DNA of 64,000 bases from Streptomyces sp. MMBL 11-1. Its GTDB lineage: Bacteria; Actinomycetota; Actinomycetes; Streptomycetales; Streptomycetaceae. Positions 29,046 to 37,793 of this stretch are shown in pieces. How positions within the stretch are numbered: position 1 is the first letter of the stretch; each line of letters begins with the position of its first letter. The position numbers were made by a program, and so were the translations under genes. The notes below the pieces were generated by a model, which did not search any database, was not told where the DNA came from, and saw nothing but the letters and a program-made list of their open reading frames with translations. The stretch lies in NCBI RefSeq assembly GCF_028622875.1, contig NZ_CP117709.1:2914001-2978000 (forward strand), given 5' to 3'.

Positions 29046-29517
29046 GGTATTTCTCCTATGTCGGTCGATGACTGGACGTCATTGGGTACGGTCCGAGTCT
29101 GGGTTCTGGACGGTGTCCGGCGCGATGGTGCCCAGCGCAGTCTTCAGGTGGGGTTTTCCCCACCCGCCCCCCTGCGGTGGGCCGTAGTCGATGTCTCGCG
29201 GCGACGTAAGAACAGGTTAAGGAAACGCCCCCTGCCGCCACGTCCTCCGCCGGGAGGAACGGGCCCTGGCCACTATGAGGGGGCACCCCCTAGGGGACTC
29301 GTCCCCCAGGGGGAGGCGAGGTCAGGGACACCGTTCGGCCCGGCGGGACCACGGTCGGGGCCGCCGCCCAACCGGAACGCCAGGGTCCGTCGGGACCCCT
29401 TCCCCACCCTGCTCCTTCCCCTCTCCGACCCCTCAACCGTTCTCGTCGTCCCGCCCCGTACGGCGCTCCCGGATGAGACAGTGCCCCGGGAGATACGTGC
29501 ATAGGGAAGGAAACCCG
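29046..29517. other. Divergent promoter region, ABC ATPase / MFS transporter
   Basis: 472 bp without a gene. It contains the promoters of the leftward ABC operon and the rightward MFS gene; no clear operator palindrome was identified. A tract at 29276-29312 has repeated CCCCxAGGG motifs (GGGGGCACCCCCTAGGGG), probably a local hairpin. Confidence 0.5.
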
Positions 29518-31383
29518 GTGAGCGGCTCGGACGGCAAGAGCGACGTGGGCACGGACGGCACAGCGGCGGACTCCACCCCCGGCGCGGGCTCCGCCTTCGG
29601 CGCGGGTACGGGCCTTGGCGCGGGATCGGGCGCCGGCGCGGGCTCCACCTCCGGTGCGGGCACGGGCCCCAGCGCGGGTACGGGTCCCGGCGCGGACACG
29701 GGACCCGGCGCGGGCTCCACCTTCGGCGCGGGCACGGGTCCCAGCGCGGGCGCCAACGGGGAGGCGGTTACGGACGGGAAGGCGGATACAGGCGGGCACG
29801 CGCATACGGGCGGCGACGGCACGACCACGCCGCCCGCGCTCACCACCCCCCGGGGCCGCCGCCCCGTCGTGGCGGCGCTCATGCTCGGCATGGCGCTGGC
29901 GGCCATCGACGGCACCATCGTGTCCACCGCCGTCCCCCAGATCGTCGGCGACCTGGGCGGGTTCACCGTCTTCTCCTGGCTCTTCTCCGGCTACCTGCTG
30001 GCCGTCACCGTCACGCTCCCCCTGTACGGGAAGCTTTCCGACACCTTCGGCCGCAAGCCGGTCCTGATAGCCGGGATCGTCCTCTTCCTGATCGGCTCGG
30101 TCCTCTGCGCGGCCGCCTGGAACATGGCCGCGCTCATCGCCTTCCGCATCGTCCAGGGCCTGGGCGGCGGCGCCCTCCAGGGCACGGTCCAGACCATCGC
30201 GGCCGACCTCTACCCGCTCAAGGAACGCCCGCGCATCCAGGCGAAGCTCTCGACGGTCTGGGCCACCTCCGCGGTCGCCGGGCCCGTGGTCGGCGGACTG
30301 CTCGCCGGGTACGCGGACTGGCGGTGGATCTTCCTGATCAACCTCCCGGTCGGGGCGGTCGCCCTCTGGCTGGTCGTCCGCCACCTCCACGAACCCGCCC
30401 GCCCCCGCCCCGCCGCCCGGCCCCGCGTCGACTGGGCGGGCGCGCTCGCCGTCTTCGCGACCGGCGCCCTGCTGCTCACCGCGCTCGTGCAGGGCGGCGT
30501 CGTCTGGCCCTGGCTCTCGGCGCCCTCGCTCGGACTGTTCGGGGCGAGCGCGGTGCTGGCCGCGCTCACCGTCGTCATCGAACGGCGGGCAGCGGAGCCG
30601 ATCATCCCGGGCTGGGTGTGGCGTCGGCGCACCATCGCCTCGGTCAACCTGGCGCTCGGCGCGCTGGGCCTGCTGATGGTCGCGCCGACCGTCTTCCTCC
30701 CCACGTACGCCCAGTCGGTGCTGGGCCTCGGCCCGATAGCGGCCGGGTTCGTGCTCTCCGTGATGACGCTGAGCTGGCCCGTCACGGCGGCCCTGTCCGA
30801 CCGGGTCTACAACCGCATCGGCTTCCGCCTGACCGCGATCATCGGCATCGGCGCGGCCCTGCTGATCCTGCTGGCCTTCCCTCTTCTCCCCTACCCCGGC
30901 GAGCCCTGGCACCCGGCCCTGCTCATGCTCCTGCTCGGCGCGGCCCTCGGCTTCTTCCAGCTCCCCCTGATCGTGGGCGTCCAGTCGACGGTCGGCTGGG
31001 CGGAGCGCGGTACGACGACGGCGTCCGTCCTCTTCTGCCGCCAGGTCGGCCAGAGCATCGGCGCGGCGGTCTTCGGGGCCGTCGCCAACGGCGTCCTGGC
31101 CACCCGCCTCCTCGACGCCCCGGTGACCGGCCTCCCCGACGACCTGGACGCGGTTGCCCGCGCCCTGGAGGACCCGGGCGCCCTCTCCGCGGCGGCGACG
31201 GACTACCTGCGCCGGGCGGTCGACGCCGCGGTGGACCACGTCTACCTCGGGGCCGCCGGCGCCGCGGCCCTGGCCCTGCTCGCCCTGATCACCCTGGCCC
31301 CGCGCCGCTTCCCGGTCGTCACGGAGGCCGCCGAAACCTCCAGGACCACCGGGGCGGCCGACCGGCAGGACAGCCCCTCCTAG
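29518..31383 (+). CDS. MFS transporter, DHA2 family, with Gly-rich N-terminal tail
   Basis: 621 aa. The last 500 residues form a 14-span drug:H+ antiporter: ALMLGMALAAIDGTIVSTAV, motif A YGKLSDTFGRKP and motif C ATSAVAGPVVGGLLAG. The first ~115 residues are unusual: a hydrophilic tail of (G-A/S-G-T/S) repeats such as GAGTGPSAGTGPGADTGPGA. GTG 29518 (GGAAGG about 7 nt upstream) is the best start and includes this tail; no internal start with a ribosome site was found before the first span. Likely a multidrug exporter. Confidence 0.88.
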   Translation: MSGSDGKSDVGTDGTAADSTPGAGSAFGAGTGLGAGSGAGAGSTSGAGTGPSAGTGPGADTGPGAGSTFGAGTGPSAGANGEAVTDGKADTGGHAHTGGDGTTTPPALTTPRGRRPVVAALMLGMALAAIDGTIVSTAVPQIVGDLGGFTVFSWLFSGYLLAVTVTLPLYGKLSDTFGRKPVLIAGIVLFLIGSVLCAAAWNMAALIAFRIVQGLGGGALQGTVQTIAADLYPLKERPRIQAKLSTVWATSAVAGPVVGGLLAGYADWRWIFLINLPVGAVALWLVVRHLHEPARPRPAARPRVDWAGALAVFATGALLLTALVQGGVVWPWLSAPSLGLFGASAVLAALTVVIERRAAEPIIPGWVWRRRTIASVNLALGALGLLMVAPTVFLPTYAQSVLGLGPIAAGFVLSVMTLSWPVTAALSDRVYNRIGFRLTAIIGIGAALLILLAFPLLPYPGEPWHPALLMLLLGAALGFFQLPLIVGVQSTVGWAERGTTTASVLFCRQVGQSIGAAVFGAVANGVLATRLLDAPVTGLPDDLDAVARALEDPGALSAAATDYLRRAVDAAVDHVYLGAAGAAALALLALITLAPRRFPVVTEAAETSRTTGAADRQDSPS

Positions 31384-31755: not shown

Positions 31756-32853
31756 ATGGCTACCAAGCACCCTAGCCCTGCCCCGCACACCCCCGCACGC
31801 TCCGCCGCGTACCCAATGGCCAAGCCCGGCTACGGCAAACGCTCGGCACCGGACCAACAGGCCCGCACCCGGAACGACTTCGCGCTCCTGCCGACACGGG
31901 AGCGGTATGTCGCCGGGTTCGTCGACCACCTCCCCGAGGGCGCGGCGATGAGCGTCAAGACGCTGGCGAAGCAGCTTCCGCTCTACGGCCAGCAGGCCAT
32001 CTCCACCGCCCTGAACTCCCTGTCCGTCGCCGGACACTTACGCCGCGTCCGGTGCCCGGTCGTCGGAGCGGGCGACGAGACCCGCTGGGTCTTCCGCACG
32101 TTCTGGTCCCGCACGGCCCGCGACAACGAGTGGTGGAACGCCTACCTCGCCACCGAGAAGGCCGCGCTGGCCGCAGCCCCCGCACCGGAGGCGTCCGCGC
32201 TCGACACGACGCCGCAGCCACCGTGGGCCCCGGCCGAGGAACCGCCACCGCTGCCCGCCTCGGAGGGGCACAGTACGGAACAGGCCCCCGAGCCCACCGC
32301 CGTACCGCACCAGCGCACCCCGGCCCCCGACCGGCCCCCCGCCCCAACTTCACCTGCACCGCCAGCGGTTACCCCGACGCCCCAGCCCTCCGAAGCCGAC
32401 CGTTCTCCCGCCTACCTCGCCTTGGCCCGCCTCGGCCGCGACGACCACCGGCTCACCCTCTCCGCCGACGACTGCGCCACGCTGGAACCACAAGCAACGG
32501 AATGGCTCGCACGCGGCGTAAGCGTGGACTACCTGGCCCACGCCCTGACCGCAGGCCTCCCCGCCCAGGTCGACAGCCCCCTCGGCTTCCTCCGCCGCCG
32601 CCTCAACGACAAGATCCCACCCCAACTCCCCATCGACAACGCCCGACCAGCCGCCCCCGCCCCAACCCGCCGCCTCCTCATGGAATGCACGGACTGCGGC
32701 CGCCCCGGCCGGCCGGAAGCCCTCCCGGACGGCCTCTGCCGCCCCTGCCGCACCGCCCACTCACCGGCAGACGTAACCCCGCCCCACCCCGCCGAGATCG
32801 CCGACACCAAGGCCCACATGAGCAACCTCCGCGACCTGCTCAAACCCGTCTGA
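31756..32853 (+). CDS. Winged-HTH protein with C-terminal zinc ribbon (365 aa)
   Basis: A helix-turn-helix/MarR-like region (about residues 50-110: AMSVKTLAKQLPLYGQQAIS, then TALNSLSVAGHLRRV) is followed by a Pro-rich linker, a helical segment (LARLGRDDHRLTLSADDCAT) and a four-Cys ribbon CTDCGRPGRPEALPDGLCRP ending CRT. Similar proteins occur in many Streptomyces as accessory regulators of unknown target. No Shine-Dalgarno is evident before the ATG. The tail ends 110 bp before the first CRISPR-leader copy. Confidence 0.75.
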   Translation: MATKHPSPAPHTPARSAAYPMAKPGYGKRSAPDQQARTRNDFALLPTRERYVAGFVDHLPEGAAMSVKTLAKQLPLYGQQAISTALNSLSVAGHLRRVRCPVVGAGDETRWVFRTFWSRTARDNEWWNAYLATEKAALAAAPAPEASALDTTPQPPWAPAEEPPPLPASEGHSTEQAPEPTAVPHQRTPAPDRPPAPTSPAPPAVTPTPQPSEADRSPAYLALARLGRDDHRLTLSADDCATLEPQATEWLARGVSVDYLAHALTAGLPAQVDSPLGFLRRRLNDKIPPQLPIDNARPAAPAPTRRLLMECTDCGRPGRPEALPDGLCRPCRTAHSPADVTPPHPAEIADTKAHMSNLRDLLKPV

Positions 32854-32962
32854 GCCCGAGCGCCACGATCCACTCGCACCCCCGGCCGACAGAAGCCACG
32901 GGCAAAAGCGCACGACGGGACACCGAACCTCCCGCAGGGCAACTTCGCACCTCCGCGAGATC

Positions 32963-33183
32963 CCGAACACCACGACGAACGCCCTTCCCCTTACAGAGAA
33001 CGAGATACCGCACCCGCCCGGCGAAGGGCAGAATCACCCCTGCACCTGCCCAACCTCAGGCCAGAACGGTTCGCCACATCGAGGAGATATGCCCGTTTCT
33101 CAAGAAGTGGATAAAAACAGCCCCTCGGGCCCATAAACCCGCAGGTCACGAACTATGGTCCCCGCGCACGCGGGGGTGGCCCC
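32963..33183 (+). repeat. CRISPR leader copy A with one repeat
   Basis: 221 bp aligned without gaps to 36881-37101 (13 mismatches, about 94% identity). Contains the A/T-rich leader end AGTGGATAAAAACAGCCC and one 29-bp repeat at 33155-33183 with a single T-to-C change. No second repeat follows; instead the sequence runs into the XRE island. The rest of 32854-33271 holds nothing else recognisable. Confidence 0.92.
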
Positions 33184-33271
33184 GCCTAATCGCGCCCCCC
33201 TGCATCCCCTGAGGTGGGGTGTTGCGACGGCTGCTGGAAAAGGAAGTTGCTGGTGGGGGTCATGCCCGGGG

Positions 33272-34123
33272 TCAGCCGAGGGAGTCGATGGCCTTCACCA
33301 CCAGGGCCCGCGCTGCCGCGCCATACACCGCGGTCTGCCGCAGCTCCTCGAACGCTCTCGCGTACAGGGCGATCTCGCTGGGCTGGGTAATGCGGACCCG
33401 GGCCGAGACCAGCTCGACAGAGACGAGGGAGTTGTCGTAGAGGTGGAACGTCTCGCGCGGCCACTGCTCGCGGTGCGCCGTCTTCGGGATGATGCCGAGG
33501 GACACAGCGGGGAGGGCTCCGGCGGTGAGGAGGTGGCCGAGCTGGGCGGCCATCGCGTCGGCGTCGCCGATCCGGTAGTGGAGTACGGCCTCCTCGATGA
33601 GCAGGACGAAGCGGTGGCCCCGCTCGTGAATGACGCGCGAGCGGTCAACGCGGGCGCGGGCGGCTTCGGCGCTGTCATCGACCGGCAGTTCGCGGAACCG
33701 GGCGCTCATCGCGAGAACGGCAGCCGCGTACCCCTCGGTCTGGAGGAGGCCGGGGACGAGCGAGGAGGAGTAGACGCGGAACAGCTCTGTCTGTCGGAAG
33801 AAGGTGACGGAACTGTTCTGCAACTGCGCGAGTCCGTGTCGGACCTGGTGGCGCCACTCCGTGTACATCGATTCGGCGTGGAGCGACTGAGCGATGAGAT
33901 CTTCGGCCAAGGCGTCCGCGCCGGCGGTCCGGCACCAGCGGCGGATGTCGCTGGCGGAGGGGGCGGTGCGGGCGTTCTCGATGCGGGACGTTTTGGCGTG
34001 GTGCCAGCCGCACCCGGCGGCCAGCTCGGTGACCGTCAGCCCGGCTCCTTTGCGCAGGTCACGCAATCGCTTTGCGACGACTTCGCGCGCGGCCTGGGCC
34101 GAGGAGGAGGGGGATGTGGTCAT
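33272..34123 (-). CDS. XRE-family regulator with DUF5753 (Scr1 type)
   Basis: 283 aa. The N-terminal HTH (RLRDLRKGAGLTVTELAAGC, then GWHHAKTSRIENAR) is Cro/C1-type; the rest is the DUF5753 ligand or partner domain (TELFRVYSSSLVPGLLQTEG, then TFHLYDNSLVSVELVSARV). Such proteins usually pair with DUF397 peptides and control development or secondary metabolism; here the DUF397 role seems taken by the 87-aa and DUF6879 genes upstream. Last gene of the leftward three-gene operon in the island between CRISPR-leader copies. Confidence 0.9.
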   Translation of the reverse strand: MTTSPSSSAQAAREVVAKRLRDLRKGAGLTVTELAAGCGWHHAKTSRIENARTAPSASDIRRWCRTAGADALAEDLIAQSLHAESMYTEWRHQVRHGLAQLQNSSVTFFRQTELFRVYSSSLVPGLLQTEGYAAAVLAMSARFRELPVDDSAEAARARVDRSRVIHERGHRFVLLIEEAVLHYRIGDADAMAAQLGHLLTAGALPAVSLGIIPKTAHREQWPRETFHLYDNSLVSVELVSARVRITQPSEIALYARAFEELRQTAVYGAAARALVVKAIDSLG

Positions 34124-34148
34124 GTGCTGGCCTGTCCAGGTGCGGTCG

Positions 34149-34682
34149 TCAGCGGATCTCGTACTGATCGTGCGCTACGCCTCGGCCCCACACGGCTTCG
34201 AACGCCTCGCCGCACAGCTTCACTGCTGACGGGTCGGTAGTGTGCTCCGGGCCTTGCGACGAGCCGTCGCCGGCGAAGTGGTTCCACCGGACGAGGCGGT
34301 CGTCGAACAGCCAGAAGTCGTTGCCGGGCAGGGCGATGTCGGAGGCGCGGCGGCGGGGCAGCCACCGCACCTGCTCGCCGGCCTCGATGTTCGTGAAGGT
34401 GCCGGAGTGCTCGTAGCGGATGTACTCGCTGAGGGGCTCGGACACGATGCGGGCCCGGCGGATGACGACACCGCGGCCTACAGTCTCGGCGACCAAGTCG
34501 AGCCAGGGCCGCCACCAGGACGCGCGGTCTGCTGGGTCATGGCGGAAGCCGGCGCGCCATTCGGCGAACGGGCCCTTCTCCTTGTCGACGGCGTAGACGT
34601 CCCGCATCTCCAGGTGCACAGCGGACCGTTCACACTGGGCCAGGAGGTCAGCGAACGTGGTTGGCACATTCGAGGGCATCAC
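34149..34682 (-). CDS. DUF6879 family protein (177 aa)
   Basis: Recognised as the DUF6879 type that commonly accompanies Scr1/XRE regulators: TFADLLAQCERSAVHLEMRD, then VRWLPRRRASDIALPGNDFW and LFDDRLVRWNHFAGDG. The aromatic pattern suggests a compact alpha/beta fold; the biochemical role is unknown. It starts 35 bp inside the upstream 87-aa gene and ends 25 bp before the XRE gene, so the three are co-expressed. Confidence 0.82.
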   Translation of the reverse strand: MMPSNVPTTFADLLAQCERSAVHLEMRDVYAVDKEKGPFAEWRAGFRHDPADRASWWRPWLDLVAETVGRGVVIRRARIVSEPLSEYIRYEHSGTFTNIEAGEQVRWLPRRRASDIALPGNDFWLFDDRLVRWNHFAGDGSSQGPEHTTDPSAVKLCGEAFEAVWGRGVAHDQYEIR

Positions 34683-34911
34683 ACGCCTCCCTGATCATGT
34701 CCACCATCCTGGCGGGGATGCGGACCACGGCTTCGGTGTCCGGGATTCCTACGGCGTGCCCGGGGAGTTCGAGGGCGGCGCACTCGGCTTCGAGTTCGGG
34801 GCTCGGCTTCCACCCCTGAAAGACGAGCTCGCCCTTCCCCTGGTCGATCCACACGGTTGGGCTCTCGTCGTCGCCGGTCTGCGGGTCGATTCCGATGAAC
34901 TGTAACGACAT
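34648..34911 (-). CDS. Small conserved protein of the XRE-DUF6879 operon (87 aa)
   Basis: Begins MSLQFIGIDPQTGDDESPTV, contains a WKPSP motif and ends MVDMIREACDALECANHVR. Small proteins of this kind are regular partners in XRE clusters of streptomycetes and may modulate the repressor. GGAGG lies 7 nt before the ATG. First gene of the operon, divergent from the 46-codon ORF at 35107. Confidence 0.7.
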   Translation of the reverse strand: MSLQFIGIDPQTGDDESPTVWIDQGKGELVFQGWKPSPELEAECAALELPGHAVGIPDTEAVVRIPARMVDMIREACDALECANHVR

Positions 34912-35106
34912 GTGGCACCTCCGGCTGAGGGGTGTGCGGTTGTGTGCAACACCGTCAGGCACAGCCAGGGTGAGGTCAAGAGGGCGTTCCTGGGGGTGCC
35001 CCCGAAGGGGTTCGAGTGCACATATCTGCACATGGCTGGTGTGCGCGCCCAGGCGGTCCCTACGGTCTGGCGTATCTCACCGACTGCGACGGGGGTCATA
35101 CCCGTG

Positions 35107-35247
35107 ATGACGATCACGGTGTACGAGGTGGGCCGCGACGGGCTCACTCTCATCGTGCGCGAGGAGGCAGAGGTCGTGCCCCTCGAACAGCCGGAGTCCT
35201 CGCACCAGTTCCCCGCCTTCGAGTGCCCCGGGTGCCAGACGCCCTGA
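35107..35247 (+). CDS. 46-codon ORF ending in CPGC (hypothetical)
   Basis: Starts MTITVYEVGRDGLTLIVREE and ends PAFECPGCQTP. The first half is beta-like and hydrophobic/charged; the last part has two cysteines in CPGC. The frame stays open upstream to about 34912, so the start is uncertain. First rightward ORF of the island; it may be a regulatory peptide or a RiPP precursor. No family recognised. Confidence 0.4.
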   Translation: MTITVYEVGRDGLTLIVREEAEVVPLEQPESSHQFPAFECPGCQTP

Positions 35248-35374
35248 CGATGACGTGGTGCTACGCCGATGGCGGCATGCACCCCCGGTCCTGGACGACA
35301 CCGGCGCCCATTGCTCTGACCACAGCGTGACCCTGCTCCGGCACTGCCACGCTCCCACCCACGAAGGAGACAGG

Positions 35375-35509
35375 ATGACCACGCACACCGCACAGGCCGA
35401 CGATGGCAAGCACGGCGGAGAGCCGTCGGACAAGCCCTGGGTGCCGGACCCCGCCCCGGCCCCGTCGCCGGACGGAAGCCGCCCGCAGAAGCACAGCCCG
35501 CAGTCATGA
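35375..35509 (+). CDS. 44-aa peptide, candidate RiPP precursor
   Basis: Strongly supported by AAGGAGA 5 nt before the ATG and by the ATGA overlap with the methyltransferase gene. The peptide is hydrophilic and Pro-rich with two Asp-Gly pairs (ADDGKHGG near the start, SPDGSRP near the end) and VPDPAP between. Asp-Gly is the favoured site for PIMT-driven isoaspartate/aspartimide formation. It has no Cys, so it is not a lanthipeptide. The precursor call is inference from size, coupling and the adjacent PIMT-like enzyme. Confidence 0.55.
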   Translation: MTTHTAQADDGKHGGEPSDKPWVPDPAPAPSPDGSRPQKHSPQS

Positions 35510-36609
35510 GTACGGCACAGCATGGGGTGCCCACCTACGCCGCACTCGTGCAGGGCCTCGCCCACCGAGGGTTACTCAGCCCGGAGTGGCGGAAGGTCTG
35601 GGACGCCGTGCCGCGCGCCGACTACATTCCGCAGGCCGTCTGGCGGCAGCTCCCGGACCGGTGTGAACCGGTCATCGGGACGGACGACTGGGCGGCGCTG
35701 GTCCACTCCGACGAGCCGGTCGTCACGCAGCTCGACGACGGGATCGAGGGTGGGCCCGGCATCGCGACGTCGTCGAACTCCATGCCGTCGATGGTGGCCC
35801 GGATGCTCGGGCTCCTCGGCATCGAGGACGGGCACCGCGTGTTGGAGATTGGCACAGGGACCGGGCATATTGCCGCGCTGCTCTGCGAGCGGCTCGGCGA
35901 GGAGCAGGTCTATAGCGTCGAGCTGGACCCCGTGCTGGCTCAACAGGCCGCGGATCACCTTGCCAGGGCCGGATTCCGGCCGCGTCTGCACGTCGGTGAC
36001 GGCGAGCAGCAGCTCCCCGGTATCGACCCGGTCGACCGCCTGATCGCCACGTGTGCCCTCCGGTACGTCCCGCACACCCTGGTCCGGCAGGTGCGGCCCG
36101 GCGGCGTCATGGTCGCCCCGCTCGCCCGCGACTTCTGGTCCGGCGCACTGGTCCAGCTCCACGTCCAGGACGACGGAACAGCAATCGGGCCGGTCCGCGG
36201 GTCGGCGATGTACATGCCGATGCGCTCGCACCGCCCGGTCGAGCACCAGATCAGGGGCAAAGGCCGGCAGCGCGCCGCGGGCCTCGACCCCGCCCGGATC
36301 CTCGACCTCGGGTTCGCCCTGTACGCGGGGGCCCGCCTGCCCGGCGTCCGGGTCAGCGGCACGGAGACCCCGGACGGCGCCCGAGTGTGGGTGAGCCACA
36401 AAAGCGGGGCTGCCGCCGCCACGGCGACAGGCGAGGCCGTGTGGCAGTACGGGCCTGGCCTGATGTGGGAAGAGATCGAGACGGCATGGCGGGAGTACGA
36501 GCAACTCGGCAGCCCGGACCCGGGACAGTTCGGGCTGACCGTGACCGACCGCGGCCAGCAGACGTGGCTGCGTGACCCTCTTGCAGTGATCGAGGCGAGG
36601 CGCGGGTAG
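35506..36609 (+). CDS. PIMT-like SAM methyltransferase with extra C-terminal domain (367 aa)
   Basis: Resembles protein-L-isoaspartate O-methyltransferase. N-terminal VPRADYIPQAVW occupies the place of the VPRHxFVP signature; SAM motif I is VLEIGTGTGHIAALL, followed by VYSVELDPVLAQQAADHLA; a later strand is VDRLIATCALRYVPHTLVRQ. The enzyme is about 150 residues longer than housekeeping Pcm; the extra C-terminal part (from about GKGRQRAAG) is what RiPP-associated PIMTs carry. Translationally coupled to the 44-aa peptide. A strong terminator follows. Possible roles: imiditide/graspetide-type maturation, or a general isoaspartate repair paralogue. Confidence 0.78.
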   Translation: MSTAQHGVPTYAALVQGLAHRGLLSPEWRKVWDAVPRADYIPQAVWRQLPDRCEPVIGTDDWAALVHSDEPVVTQLDDGIEGGPGIATSSNSMPSMVARMLGLLGIEDGHRVLEIGTGTGHIAALLCERLGEEQVYSVELDPVLAQQAADHLARAGFRPRLHVGDGEQQLPGIDPVDRLIATCALRYVPHTLVRQVRPGGVMVAPLARDFWSGALVQLHVQDDGTAIGPVRGSAMYMPMRSHRPVEHQIRGKGRQRAAGLDPARILDLGFALYAGARLPGVRVSGTETPDGARVWVSHKSGAAAATATGEAVWQYGPGLMWEEIETAWREYEQLGSPDPGQFGLTVTDRGQQTWLRDPLAVIEARRG

Positions 36610-36624
36610 AGCCGTCCCTCAAGC

Positions 36625-36660
36625 GAGCGCCCGGCGGGATGCGTTTCCGGCCGGGCGCTC
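36625..36660 (+). terminator. Terminator of the peptide-methyltransferase operon
   Basis: Perfect 11-bp stem GAGCGCCCGGC/GCCGGGCGCTC, 14-nt loop, 15 bp after the methyltransferase stop. Confidence 0.85.
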
Positions 36661-36709
36661 TGCTGCTGCTCCGCGACGAGCTGGGAGACCAGGGAGCCGA
36701 GAGCGGGGC

Positions 36710-36880
36710 ATGGCGGACGATGTCTTCAAGGCCCTCGCCGACCCCACCCGGCGGCGCATCCTCAACGAGCTGACCGAACGGAACAGTCAGACCCTGTTCA
36801 AGATATGCGCGCGACTGACCACCAGACACGGCCTGGGCCTGTCCCGCCAGGCGGTCAGCCAGCACCTGGCCGTCCTGGAA
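36710..36880 (+). pseudogene. 5' fragment of the arsR gene (duplicated)
   Basis: 57 codons nearly identical to the start of the intact arsR at 37500 (a few substitutions, e.g. LNEL for LDEL, FKIC for FEIC), ending exactly after HLAVLE where the sequence switches to CRISPR-leader copy B. It lacks the C-terminal winged-helix part and the operator palindrome of the intact gene. If translated it would continue into the leader as a chimeric tail; this is a duplication scar, not a functional regulator. Confidence 0.85.
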
Positions 36881-37101
36881 CCGAACACGACGATGAACGC
36901 CCTTCCCCTTACAGAGAACGAGATACCGCACATGCCCGGCGAAAGGCAGAATCACCCCTGGACCTGCCCGACTCCAGGCCAGAACGGTTTGCCACATCGA
37001 GGAGATATGCCCGTTTCTCAAGAAGTGGATAAAAACAGCCCTTCGGGCGCATAAACCCGCAGGTCACGAACTATGGTCCCCGCGCACGCGGGGGTGGTCC
37101 C
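36881..37101 (+). repeat. CRISPR leader copy B with first repeat
   Basis: Second copy of the 221-bp leader-repeat block, 94% identical to 32963-33183 and of exactly equal length. The A/T-rich leader end (AGTGGATAAAAACAGCCC) directly precedes the array, so the array is read rightwards. Confidence 0.92.
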
Positions 37102-37338
37102 GGTGGAGCCATATCGAACTCGAAGAGCTCGGTATGGTCCCCGCGCACGCGGGGGTGGTCCCTTCGGCAGGGCCGTCGCCGCCTTCTTCTTCGCATGGTC
37201 CCCGCGCACGCGGGGGTGGTCCCTACCGCCCCGACAGGGCGCAGTGGAGTCGGCTATGGTCCCCGCGCACGCGGGGGTGGTCCCATGGCCGCCGCCGCCG
37301 GGAGCGCCACCAGATCATGGTCCCCGCGCACGCGGGGG
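37073..37338 (+). CRISPR. CRISPR array, type I-E repeat, 5 repeats / 4 spacers
   Basis: 29-bp repeats (beginning ATGGTCCCCGCGCACGC, ending GGGGTGGTCCC) start at 37073, 37134, 37195, 37256 and 37317; spacers are all 32 nt (37102-37133, 37163-37194, 37224-37255, 37285-37316). The last repeat keeps only 22 bp (to 37338), marking the old, leader-distal end. The palindromic CCCCGCGCACGCGGGG core is the type I-E pattern of Streptomyces. No cas genes lie in this window, so it depends on a cas locus elsewhere or is silent. Confidence 0.96.
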
Positions 37339-37491: not shown

Positions 37492-37499
37492 GTGGGGAC

Positions 37500-37793
37500 A
37501 TGGCGGACGATGTCTTCAAGGCCCTGGCCGACCCCACCCGGCGGCGCATCCTCGACGAGCTGACCGAACGGAACGGTCAGACCCTGTTCGAGATATGCGC
37601 GCGGCTGGCCACCAGACACGGCCTGGGCCTGTCCCGCCAGGCGGTCAGCCAGCACCTGGCCGTCCTGGAAGCGGCGGGGCTGGTCGTCCCACGCCGCCAG
37701 GGTCGCTACAAGTTCCACGACCTCGACACCGAACCCCTTGAGCACATCGTCAGTCGATGGCTCGGGCCGAAAGCACCGGAGAGCACCCCATGA
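37500..37793 (+). CDS. ArsR-family transcriptional regulator (97 aa)
   Basis: Compact winged-helix repressor: DDVFKALADPTRRRILDELT, recognition helix region GLSRQAVSQHLAVLEAAGLV, wing RRQGRYKFHDLD. No metal-binding Cys pair is seen, so it belongs to the metal-independent ArsR group often coupled to glyoxalase-like genes. Its stop overlaps the ATG of the VOC gene (ATGA). Likely represses both genes via the palindrome at 37466-37491. Confidence 0.93.
   Translation: MADDVFKALADPTRRRILDELTERNGQTLFEICARLATRHGLGLSRQAVSQHLAVLEAAGLVVPRRQGRYKFHDLDTEPLEHIVSRWLGPKAPESTP

Follow-up and report, generated by a model that had tools for sequence, protein, structure and literature searches.

In a stretch of 64,000 nucleotides of Streptomyces sp. 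MMBL 11-1 (contig NZ_CP117709.1, here C1, positions C1:2914001-2978000 of an 8.5-Mb genome), called the window in the following, the gene of a 44-residue peptide is overlapped by that of a methyltransferase related to protein-L-isoaspartate methyltransferases (PIMTs). This pair is likely to be a precursor of the type I pamtide/imiditide class of ribosomally synthesized and post-translationally modified peptides (RiPPs) together with its modifying enzyme (PAMT), which form the output end of a mobile module switched by regulators of the XRE family. The peptide-enzyme class itself is already published, and the regulator, phage and plasmid context is what is new here. A first-pass annotation of the same DNA had proposed the identity of the pair and missed the carriage of related units by phages and plasmids, the exchange of the regulator and the conservation of just one Asp-Gly.

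The precursor peptide and its methyltransferase

The precursor gene (35375..35509, forward strand) encodes a 44-aa peptide of the form GKHGG...SDKPW...SPDGSRP, whose stop codon TGA overlaps the start codon of the methyltransferase gene (35506..36609, forward strand, 367 aa) at 35506 in a common ATGA; the coordinates and frames given by the first-pass annotation, including the ending of a Cys-free peptide with two Asp-Gly sites inside the methyltransferase ATG, are correct. A codon model trained on related loci calls the peptide, the enzyme, the small open reading frame (ORF) orf46 and the divergent genes described below; the score of the peptide gene is low (7.8), and the methyltransferase start is set by the model at a later ATG, 35527, the next in-frame start. 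Inspected by eye, the peptide has no Cys, contains 9 Pro, 5 Asp and 4 Gly among its 44 residues, carries Asp-Gly at residues 10-11 and 33-34 and shows no signal peptide or other export signal. It has no match in NCBIfam or Pfam and few homologues (nine) in the protein collection.

The conservation of the peptide was followed in 38 related Streptomyces loci (numbered with the prefix L), obtained in a single scan with the enzyme and in several cases derived from one strain. In 34 of them the ORF immediately before the enzyme gene encodes a GKH-type peptide, which was not found at L010, L023, L038 and L046; L010 retains a frame with SDKPW and SPDG and without KH, and L023 a partial frame only. 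The window-type peptide is present in 31 loci, in 29 of which the enzyme start codon overlaps the peptide stop. The 28-codon core of the peptide has a ratio of nonsynonymous to synonymous substitution rates (dN/dS) of 0.19, against 1.34 and 2.50 for the other two frames of the same DNA (24 loci and the window, giving 25 distinct cores, with duplicates and length variants omitted); the core therefore evolves as a protein, under purifying selection. The first-pass annotation had named the absence of the peptide frame beside the methyltransferase in related genomes as the finding that would overturn its reading, and the frame held in this comparison.

Motifs were counted in 37 distinct peptides, from 40 sequences, that had been selected for KH and PW, so that these letters are in themselves no evidence of conservation. 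SPD is present in all 37 peptides, SPDG in 36 and an Asp preceding PW in 35, while DGKH occurs in 13 and Cys in 10. Since SPD is invariant and DGKH is found in just 13 of 37, Asp33 is the predicted modification site and the first Asp-Gly (residues 10-11) is incidental; hence, of the two sites pointed out at first, both exist and only Asp33-Gly34 is conserved.

The best curated match of the enzyme is TIGR04188, the model of RiPP-associated PIMTs from ATP-grasp peptide systems, which it matches over its full length with 292 bits; a PCMT domain is also recognized (E 1.8e-25). The AlphaFold model of the enzyme (mean pLDDT 90.1, 20 sequences) shows, in addition to the PIMT fold, a strand-helix-strand domain past residue 250. 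Of the PDB structures it matches best 1DL5, the PIMT of Thermotoga (360 columns, rmsd 8.1 across both domains), which is, to the knowledge of Lee et al. as stated in the part of their text on this clade, the only solved enzyme in the clade with a C-terminal domain (PMC10787088). The enzyme carries the extra C-terminal domain of TmPIMT and of the RiPP-type PIMTs, as the first-pass annotation had suggested. A WXXXGXP motif near the C-terminus is reported for most, not all, type I enzymes in the relevant section of a 2026 review (PMC13001092); the window enzyme has YEQLGSP at this place. Among 42 enzymes YxxxGxP is found in 33, W forms in 7, an F form in 1 and none in 1; counted by pattern, 36 have [YWF]xxxGxP, 5 have W with S or D replacing G, and 1 has neither.

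Elsewhere in the genome a single protein exceeds the TIGR04188 cut-off, its gene being next to an ATP-grasp gene at C1:2173691; various other TIGR04188-like matches exist as well. A search with TIGR04187 found no ATP-grasp gene near the window, as the first-pass annotation had held for the locus; the two matches of the genome are at C1:2173691 and C1:7472223, no nearer than about 0.77 Mb from the module. As a separate observation, the genome holds twelve PCMT-family matches with E <1e-20, exceeding the need for one repair enzyme.

By family, the pair appears to be a type I pamtide/imiditide, and the imiditide-type reading proposed at first is supported by the conserved peptide frame, the enzyme family and the fit of the precursor. 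In the published type I systems (Lee et al. 2023; Cao et al. 2023), as far as described in the consulted sections of PMC10787088, a precursor of about 45 aa rich in Pro, Gly and Asp, with a conserved Asp near Pro or Gly, is adjacent to a PIMT homologue with a C-terminal domain and there is no ATP-grasp gene; the window pair shares these features (the last by the TIGR04187 search only), and its peptide has the length and the proportions of Pro and Asp described for such precursors, with a Gly share below their published mean of 17.3%. The review sections counting the class report 1,414 type I clusters, commonest in Streptomyces and Actinomadura (PMC13001092), and since this class is already known the pair itself is a member of it and not a new class. 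The pair differs from the type I pamtides, in the form in which these sources present them, in its GKHGG...SDKPW...SPDGSRP subfamily, which is not basic overall, in the larger small-ORF operon and exchangeable XRE regulators of its relatives, and in the occurrence of these relatives on phages, phage-like contigs and plasmids. The main texts of the two papers on the class gave no hit for the terms searched on regulators, phages, plasmids or CRISPR, and these precursors may already be among the published supplementary precursor lists, which lie beyond those main texts. Literature matches for the peptide motifs were two unrelated papers, and among the matches listed for the phage names, Austintatiousvirus, and phage together with RiPP (in one case the best 12 of 180), nothing concerned the module by title or abstract; two of these papers name PapayaSalad.

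Two neighbouring classes have the same kind of enzyme. Type II pamtides (cysimiditides) share the two-gene logic, but their precursors need a CxxCxGxG tetracysteine motif, whereas the window peptide has no Cys. Group 13 graspetides (graspimiditides) have TIGR04188 as closest curated model and XRE/DUF5753 neighbours; unlike them, the window cluster has no TIGR04187-type ATP-grasp gene and its methyltransferase falls below the TIGR04188 cut-off.

Exchangeable regulators and the small-ORF operon

The XRE domain was searched with a profile built from XRE helix-turn-helix (HTH) regions, which recovered the known HTH_31 places in the own-genome stretches checked and one extra in L064. Of the 38 related loci, 35 offer 2.5 kb or more of sequence upstream of the enzyme, and 26 of these have the domain within 3 kb of it. 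The same holds for 13 of 21 graspetide loci (L103-L122 and L070) and for 11 of 33 enzymes from a mixed set of 40 that score under the TIGR04188 cut-off and include own-genome pairs, whereas of 80 random 3-kb segments taken from 40 stretches 5 have the domain (Fisher p against random 1.6e-13, 1.4e-7 and 4.7e-4, respectively); the 35 loci are not independent because several come from one strain. The five GKH-type pairs found in the own genome each have an XRE domain within 2 kb, that of the window by position.

The regulators comprise XRE-DUF5753 proteins, XRE proteins with helical or TPR-like C-termini and others with weak or no Pfam score; in L011, L013 and L030, where no XRE domain was detected within 3 kb, there is a 421-aa regulator-like protein, one member of which was scanned and had no Pfam match. 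Loci with the same family F12 downstream have different regulators, namely XRE-DUF5753 in L014, a 443-aa kind in L019, a TPR kind in L023 and, in L028, the kind that is 394 aa in L009. The regulator kind changes among these loci, and also among the sister phages described below, while the peptide-enzyme pair stays. L025 and L026, which belong to one strain and have an identical peptide and different regulators, were dropped as evidence of this exchange, since the naming of their contigs points to one collapsed assembly repeat common to L020, L022, L025 and L026; these four remain in the counts of 38 and, where their upstream DNA permits, of 35. Of 10 proteins examined with PADLOC, two regulators matched HTH-type models and the methyltransferase domain matched mad2; no defence system was called.

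In the window, the regulator is an XRE protein of 283 aa with a DUF5753 domain (33272..34123, reverse strand; PF19054 E 1.9e-32, HTH_31 E 5.2e-13), accompanied on the same strand by a DUF6879 protein of 177 aa (34149..34682; PF21806, E 8.1e-59) and, adjoining the latter gene, by an 87-aa ORF (34648..34911) for which a Pfam scan gave no match. The divergent XRE/DUF6879 genes and the tiny ORF at 35107-35247 had been noted in the first pass and are confirmed; the 87-aa ORF is an addition to them. The divergent promoter region (34912..35106, 195 nt) contains three TGTGCA/TGCACA boxes, at 34943, 35017 and 35027. With overlapping boxes counted, the divergent promoter has 3 in the window, 4 in L177, 5 in L034 and 3 in L174, where 0.06 to 0.18 are expected from the density of each sequence. 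Of 187 loci, 4 contain the paired form GTGCACAnnnnTGCACA: L034, L177 and the window region itself, which is present in two copies.

The relatives have a series of small ORFs ahead of the peptide, consisting of orf46, F218 of about 45 aa, the Cys-rich F219 of about 99 aa and a fourth, Cys-rich ORF of about 58 aa, none of which has a meaningful Pfam match. In a tblastn sample of 79 sequences (38 loci, 40 genome stretches and the window) the orf46 family is found in 12, F218 in 26, F219 in 26 and the fourth ORF in 23; F219 is fragmentary in L025, L032 and the window, and some matches of the fourth ORF are partial. The dN/dS values are 0.32 for orf46 (11 sequences), 0.35 for F219 (17) and 0.19 for the fourth ORF (10), and the small ORFs of the operon evolve as proteins. 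The window retains orf46 (35107..35247, forward strand), which has the C-terminus CPGCQTP and heads the operon in relatives, and a 22-codon relic of F219 (35276..35341, forward strand) at the place where relatives have the whole ORF; F218 and the fourth ORF gave no tblastn match in the window.

Phages, plasmids and CRISPR arrays as carriers and neighbours

A tblastn search of the enzyme against 50,697 phage records found 10 records, 8 of which cover at least 80% of it. These 8 represent five Streptomyces phages of the genus Austintatiousvirus (PapayaSalad, Austintatious, Ididsumtinwong, Bioscum and Alderaan), with 36-37% identity. In all five the ORF immediately upstream of the enzyme is a GKHGG peptide, MSGKHGGG...SSDGSGP, annotated as hypothetical, and a peptide of this phage kind also precedes another enzyme of the own genome (L063). 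The phage module occupies an accessory slot with the endolysin on one side and the integrase or Cro on the other; PapayaSalad, Ididsumtinwong and Bioscum have an annotated serine integrase beside it, and none is annotated in the stretches fetched for Austintatious and Alderaan. The divergent regulator is an XRE protein with a long C-terminus in PapayaSalad, an XRE-DUF5753 protein in three phages (two scanned, that of Bioscum being identical to that of Ididsumtinwong) and an HTH protein with a weak DUF5919 match in Alderaan. SV1 and Picard, which are absent from the phage records matching the enzyme, share the lysis region (90% over the whole 2.3-kb query and 76% over 55% of it, respectively); their slot (L186 3531-5929 and L187 3592-5837) has other genes, among them one for an HTH or DNA-binding protein and, in divergent orientation to it, one for a histidine kinase, which may form a further regulator module of the exchangeable kind.

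Four phage-like contigs of IMG/VR carry related genes. In L171-L173 the window-type peptide and the enzyme are found with an endolysin gene and an XRE regulator of the phage family (that of L171 assigned by blast to that of L172), L171 and L172 having an integrase as well; L174 has an integrase and neighbours resembling, by likeness, the DUF6879 pair of the window, and no peptide was found in it. In the own genome, the pair at about C1:4032800-4034053 follows tail, endolysin and holin genes. Among 72,556 plasmid records 423 match the enzyme, most below 60% and three of S. anulatus at about 80%; the one S. anulatus record opened, a linear plasmid (L177), has a whole window-like module whose 44-aa peptide is annotated as hypothetical.

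Three further observations concern phage-type sequences. L073, a Streptomyces contig of 37.8 kb (G004:C3), encodes an endolysin with 86% identity to that of PapayaSalad, two small ORFs at 85-89% and a GKHGG peptide with the enzyme, and is probably, by these likenesses, an Austintatiousvirus-like prophage or phage genome. In the Saccharomonospora phage PIS 136 (L185 2216-4081) two pieces of PIMT-like genes come after the genes of an XRE-DUF5753 and a DUF397 protein; a GKH peptide was not found at this locus, which may be an independent instance of the arrangement in a phage from a different host genus. An IMG/VR contig of 63 kb classed as viral (L181 6048-8107), which turned up with the phage enzyme as query and is left out of the imiditides, has an ATP-grasp-like sequence, recognized by eye, directly before the PAMT and is possibly a phage-borne graspetide cluster.

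The module of the window sits between two 222-nt direct copies of CRISPR leader-like DNA, the left one (32963..33184) with one repeat and the right one (36881..37102) 94% identical to it, and a CRISPR array of five repeats with 61-nt spacing follows (37072..37338). Beyond the left copy lies upMarR (31756..32853, forward strand), a MarR-like protein with a Pfam match below cut-off, which adjoins the module in 17 of the 38 related loci and in 0 of 60 controls (20 graspetide, 40 random). The own genome, searched with the window's repeat and one variant, has arrays beside modules in the window (31756-37338), at C1:4069581-4070861 and at C1:4581062-4583677; the repeat of the window, with at most 2 mismatches, occurs 23 times, 6 in the window, 16 at C1:4581062-4583677 and 1 as a stray. 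At both repeat sites and at the variant array, which is beside a Cse1 gene with other cas genes near it (by eye), upMarR and an imiditide pair are found within about 9 kb; a second Cse1 match is at C2:246250. In the fetched flanks arrays are present in 5 of the 38 related loci and in none of the 60 controls (p 0.007), and a single own stretch out of 8 has one as well; among 32 other TIGR04188 stretches there is one match, probably no array. A link with CRISPR as a general rule was rejected, arrays being found in only 5 of 38 loci and 3 of 10 genomes having no match; in the genomes of L023 and L041 the arrays, among the matches listed, are on other contig numbers or more than 30 kb off.

Two side observations concern these surroundings. 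L166 (C1:4615289-4617998) is a decayed copy of the module, in which upMarR and a HAD-like gene accompany the remnant of a regulator and 56 codons of the methyltransferase gene. An ArsR-like gene at 37500 has a truncated second copy of its start (36705-36883 versus 37495-37673, 96%), located between the module and the right CRISPR leader copy.

Proposed working of the module and rival explanations

In the working that we infer, the XRE-DUF5753 protein, together with the DUF6879 protein and the 87-aa product encoded beside it, would sense a cue and bind the TGCACA boxes; the orf46-peptide-enzyme operon would then be expressed, with peptide and enzyme translationally coupled. The enzyme would methylate Asp33 and the ester would close on Gly34 to give an aspartimide, opening mainly to isoaspartate. 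This chemistry is drawn, by analogy, from the family and from the reports of Lee et al. and of Zhu and Link; methylation and aspartimide are described for two other type I members in the sections consulted of PMC10787088, whose authors state for one of them that isoaspartate itself was not directly confirmed. The product may act inside the cell as an effector to the advantage of both the element that carries it and the host, for instance in defence against other phages. An intracellular action is the most likely one, because no signal peptide was seen in the peptide (by eye) and no transporter gene within the repeats; in the window ORFs neither a transporter nor a protease gene was noticed between the flanking copies. 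An effector of mobile elements working in the cell is preferred, its role being assigned with low certainty; that an aspartimide or isoaspartate peptide triggered by an XRE sensor, on phages, plasmids and CRISPR-side islands, protects against rival phages or decides prophage fate is put forward tentatively.

Known systems offer a partial parallel. The parts of PMC12360287 on anti-phage lanthipeptides of Actinomycetota describe RiPP clusters near anti-phage systems and call these lanthipeptides intracellular, as proposed here for the imiditide; they differ from the present case in the modification.

Several points weigh against this interpretation. The window peptide is not basic (charge about -2, by eye), whereas the imiditide section of the review stresses positive charge (PMC13001092), and the score of the enzyme is below the TIGR04188 cut-off of 380 bits. 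At 36-37% identity and with Gly-rich peptides, the phage pairs are relatives of the window's pair and not the same gene. The small Cys-rich ORFs present in relatives are missing from the window copy, which could be in decay. No XRE domain was detected within 3 kb in 9 of the 35 loci, its presence at 13 of 21 PAMT graspetides means that the association is not special to imiditides, and the association may be plain pathway regulation; L031, with the same regulator trio as the window, has no boxes. An MFS-like efflux gene (by eye, 29275-31383), outside the repeats, could export the product.

The last points bear on a possible, less likely alternative, in which the locus is an ordinary imiditide natural-product cluster, the peptide being released to act on other organisms, the XRE protein being a plain regulator and the carriage reflecting frequent horizontal transfer. 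Besides the efflux gene and the XRE domains of the graspetide loci, this would suit the fact that most copies of the pair found are chromosomal, and XRE regulators with DUF397/DUF5753 are reported beside graspetides of groups 11 and 13 in the corresponding section of PMC13097080. It is less easily reconciled with the fact that no transporter or protease gene was noticed between the flanking repeats, and with the phage module, which keeps one slot, between the lysis genes and the integrase or Cro side, and its own regulator. Phages often keep genes serving the lysogen in such a slot.

The same slot recalls prophage modules of a transcription factor and a small ORF (TF-smORF), and a fate switch of this type with Asp modification added, in which the small protein inactivates a phage repressor and the chromosomal copies are relics, would be an unlikely explanation. 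As presented in the relevant parts of PMC10432266, a small protein that inactivates cI is divergently transcribed under the control of a factor, which in some cases is accompanied by an XRE-family protein, and the genes at the conserved phage locus are variable. Austintatiousvirus has the same layout, with three kinds of regulator in five phages. The published small proteins, however, differ from each other and each acts on its own repressor, whereas the core of the window-type peptide is nearly constant across chromosomal, plasmid and phage-like copies; for the copies on plasmids and beside CRISPR arrays there is no evident phage that could be induced, and those parts of the source mention no module with a modifying enzyme.

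Peptide signalling of the arbitrium/RRNPP type, with the XRE-TPR protein as receptor of the modified peptide, appears improbable. Some regulators do pair an XRE HTH with weak TPR matches, and the profile of the phage-type regulator matches the HTH of ComR, among many XRE proteins, as well as TPR-like PDB chains; the peptide as cognate ligand of the regulator was in fact favoured at first from this XRE-TPR look and then abandoned, its core being unchanged across regulator kinds. A peptide core that is constant by inspection while the regulator turns to unrelated kinds is the opposite of the co-variation of receptor and signal, and the peptide has no export signal (by eye). It is very improbable that the enzyme, its PCMT domain notwithstanding, is a general isoaspartate repair enzyme following a small ORF by chance, as many other PCMT-like matches exist in the genome (the best at C1:3156647), the pairing and overlap are conserved and the peptide, in which a single Asp is invariant, evolves under purifying selection.

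Linking aspartimide RiPPs to a biological function is called the bigger challenge in the part of the review on this subject (PMC13001092). The exchange of unrelated XRE regulators above a near-constant peptide suggests that the output matters while the cue varies, and such a constant output with a varying cue narrows the hypotheses on imiditide function; in addition, the laboratory strain S. venezuelae ATCC 10712 is host to isolated phages with homologous pairs, which offer a genetically simple place to study it. The proposed role, if true, would be the first biological one for imiditides, and the phage pairs would be the first phage-borne imiditides.

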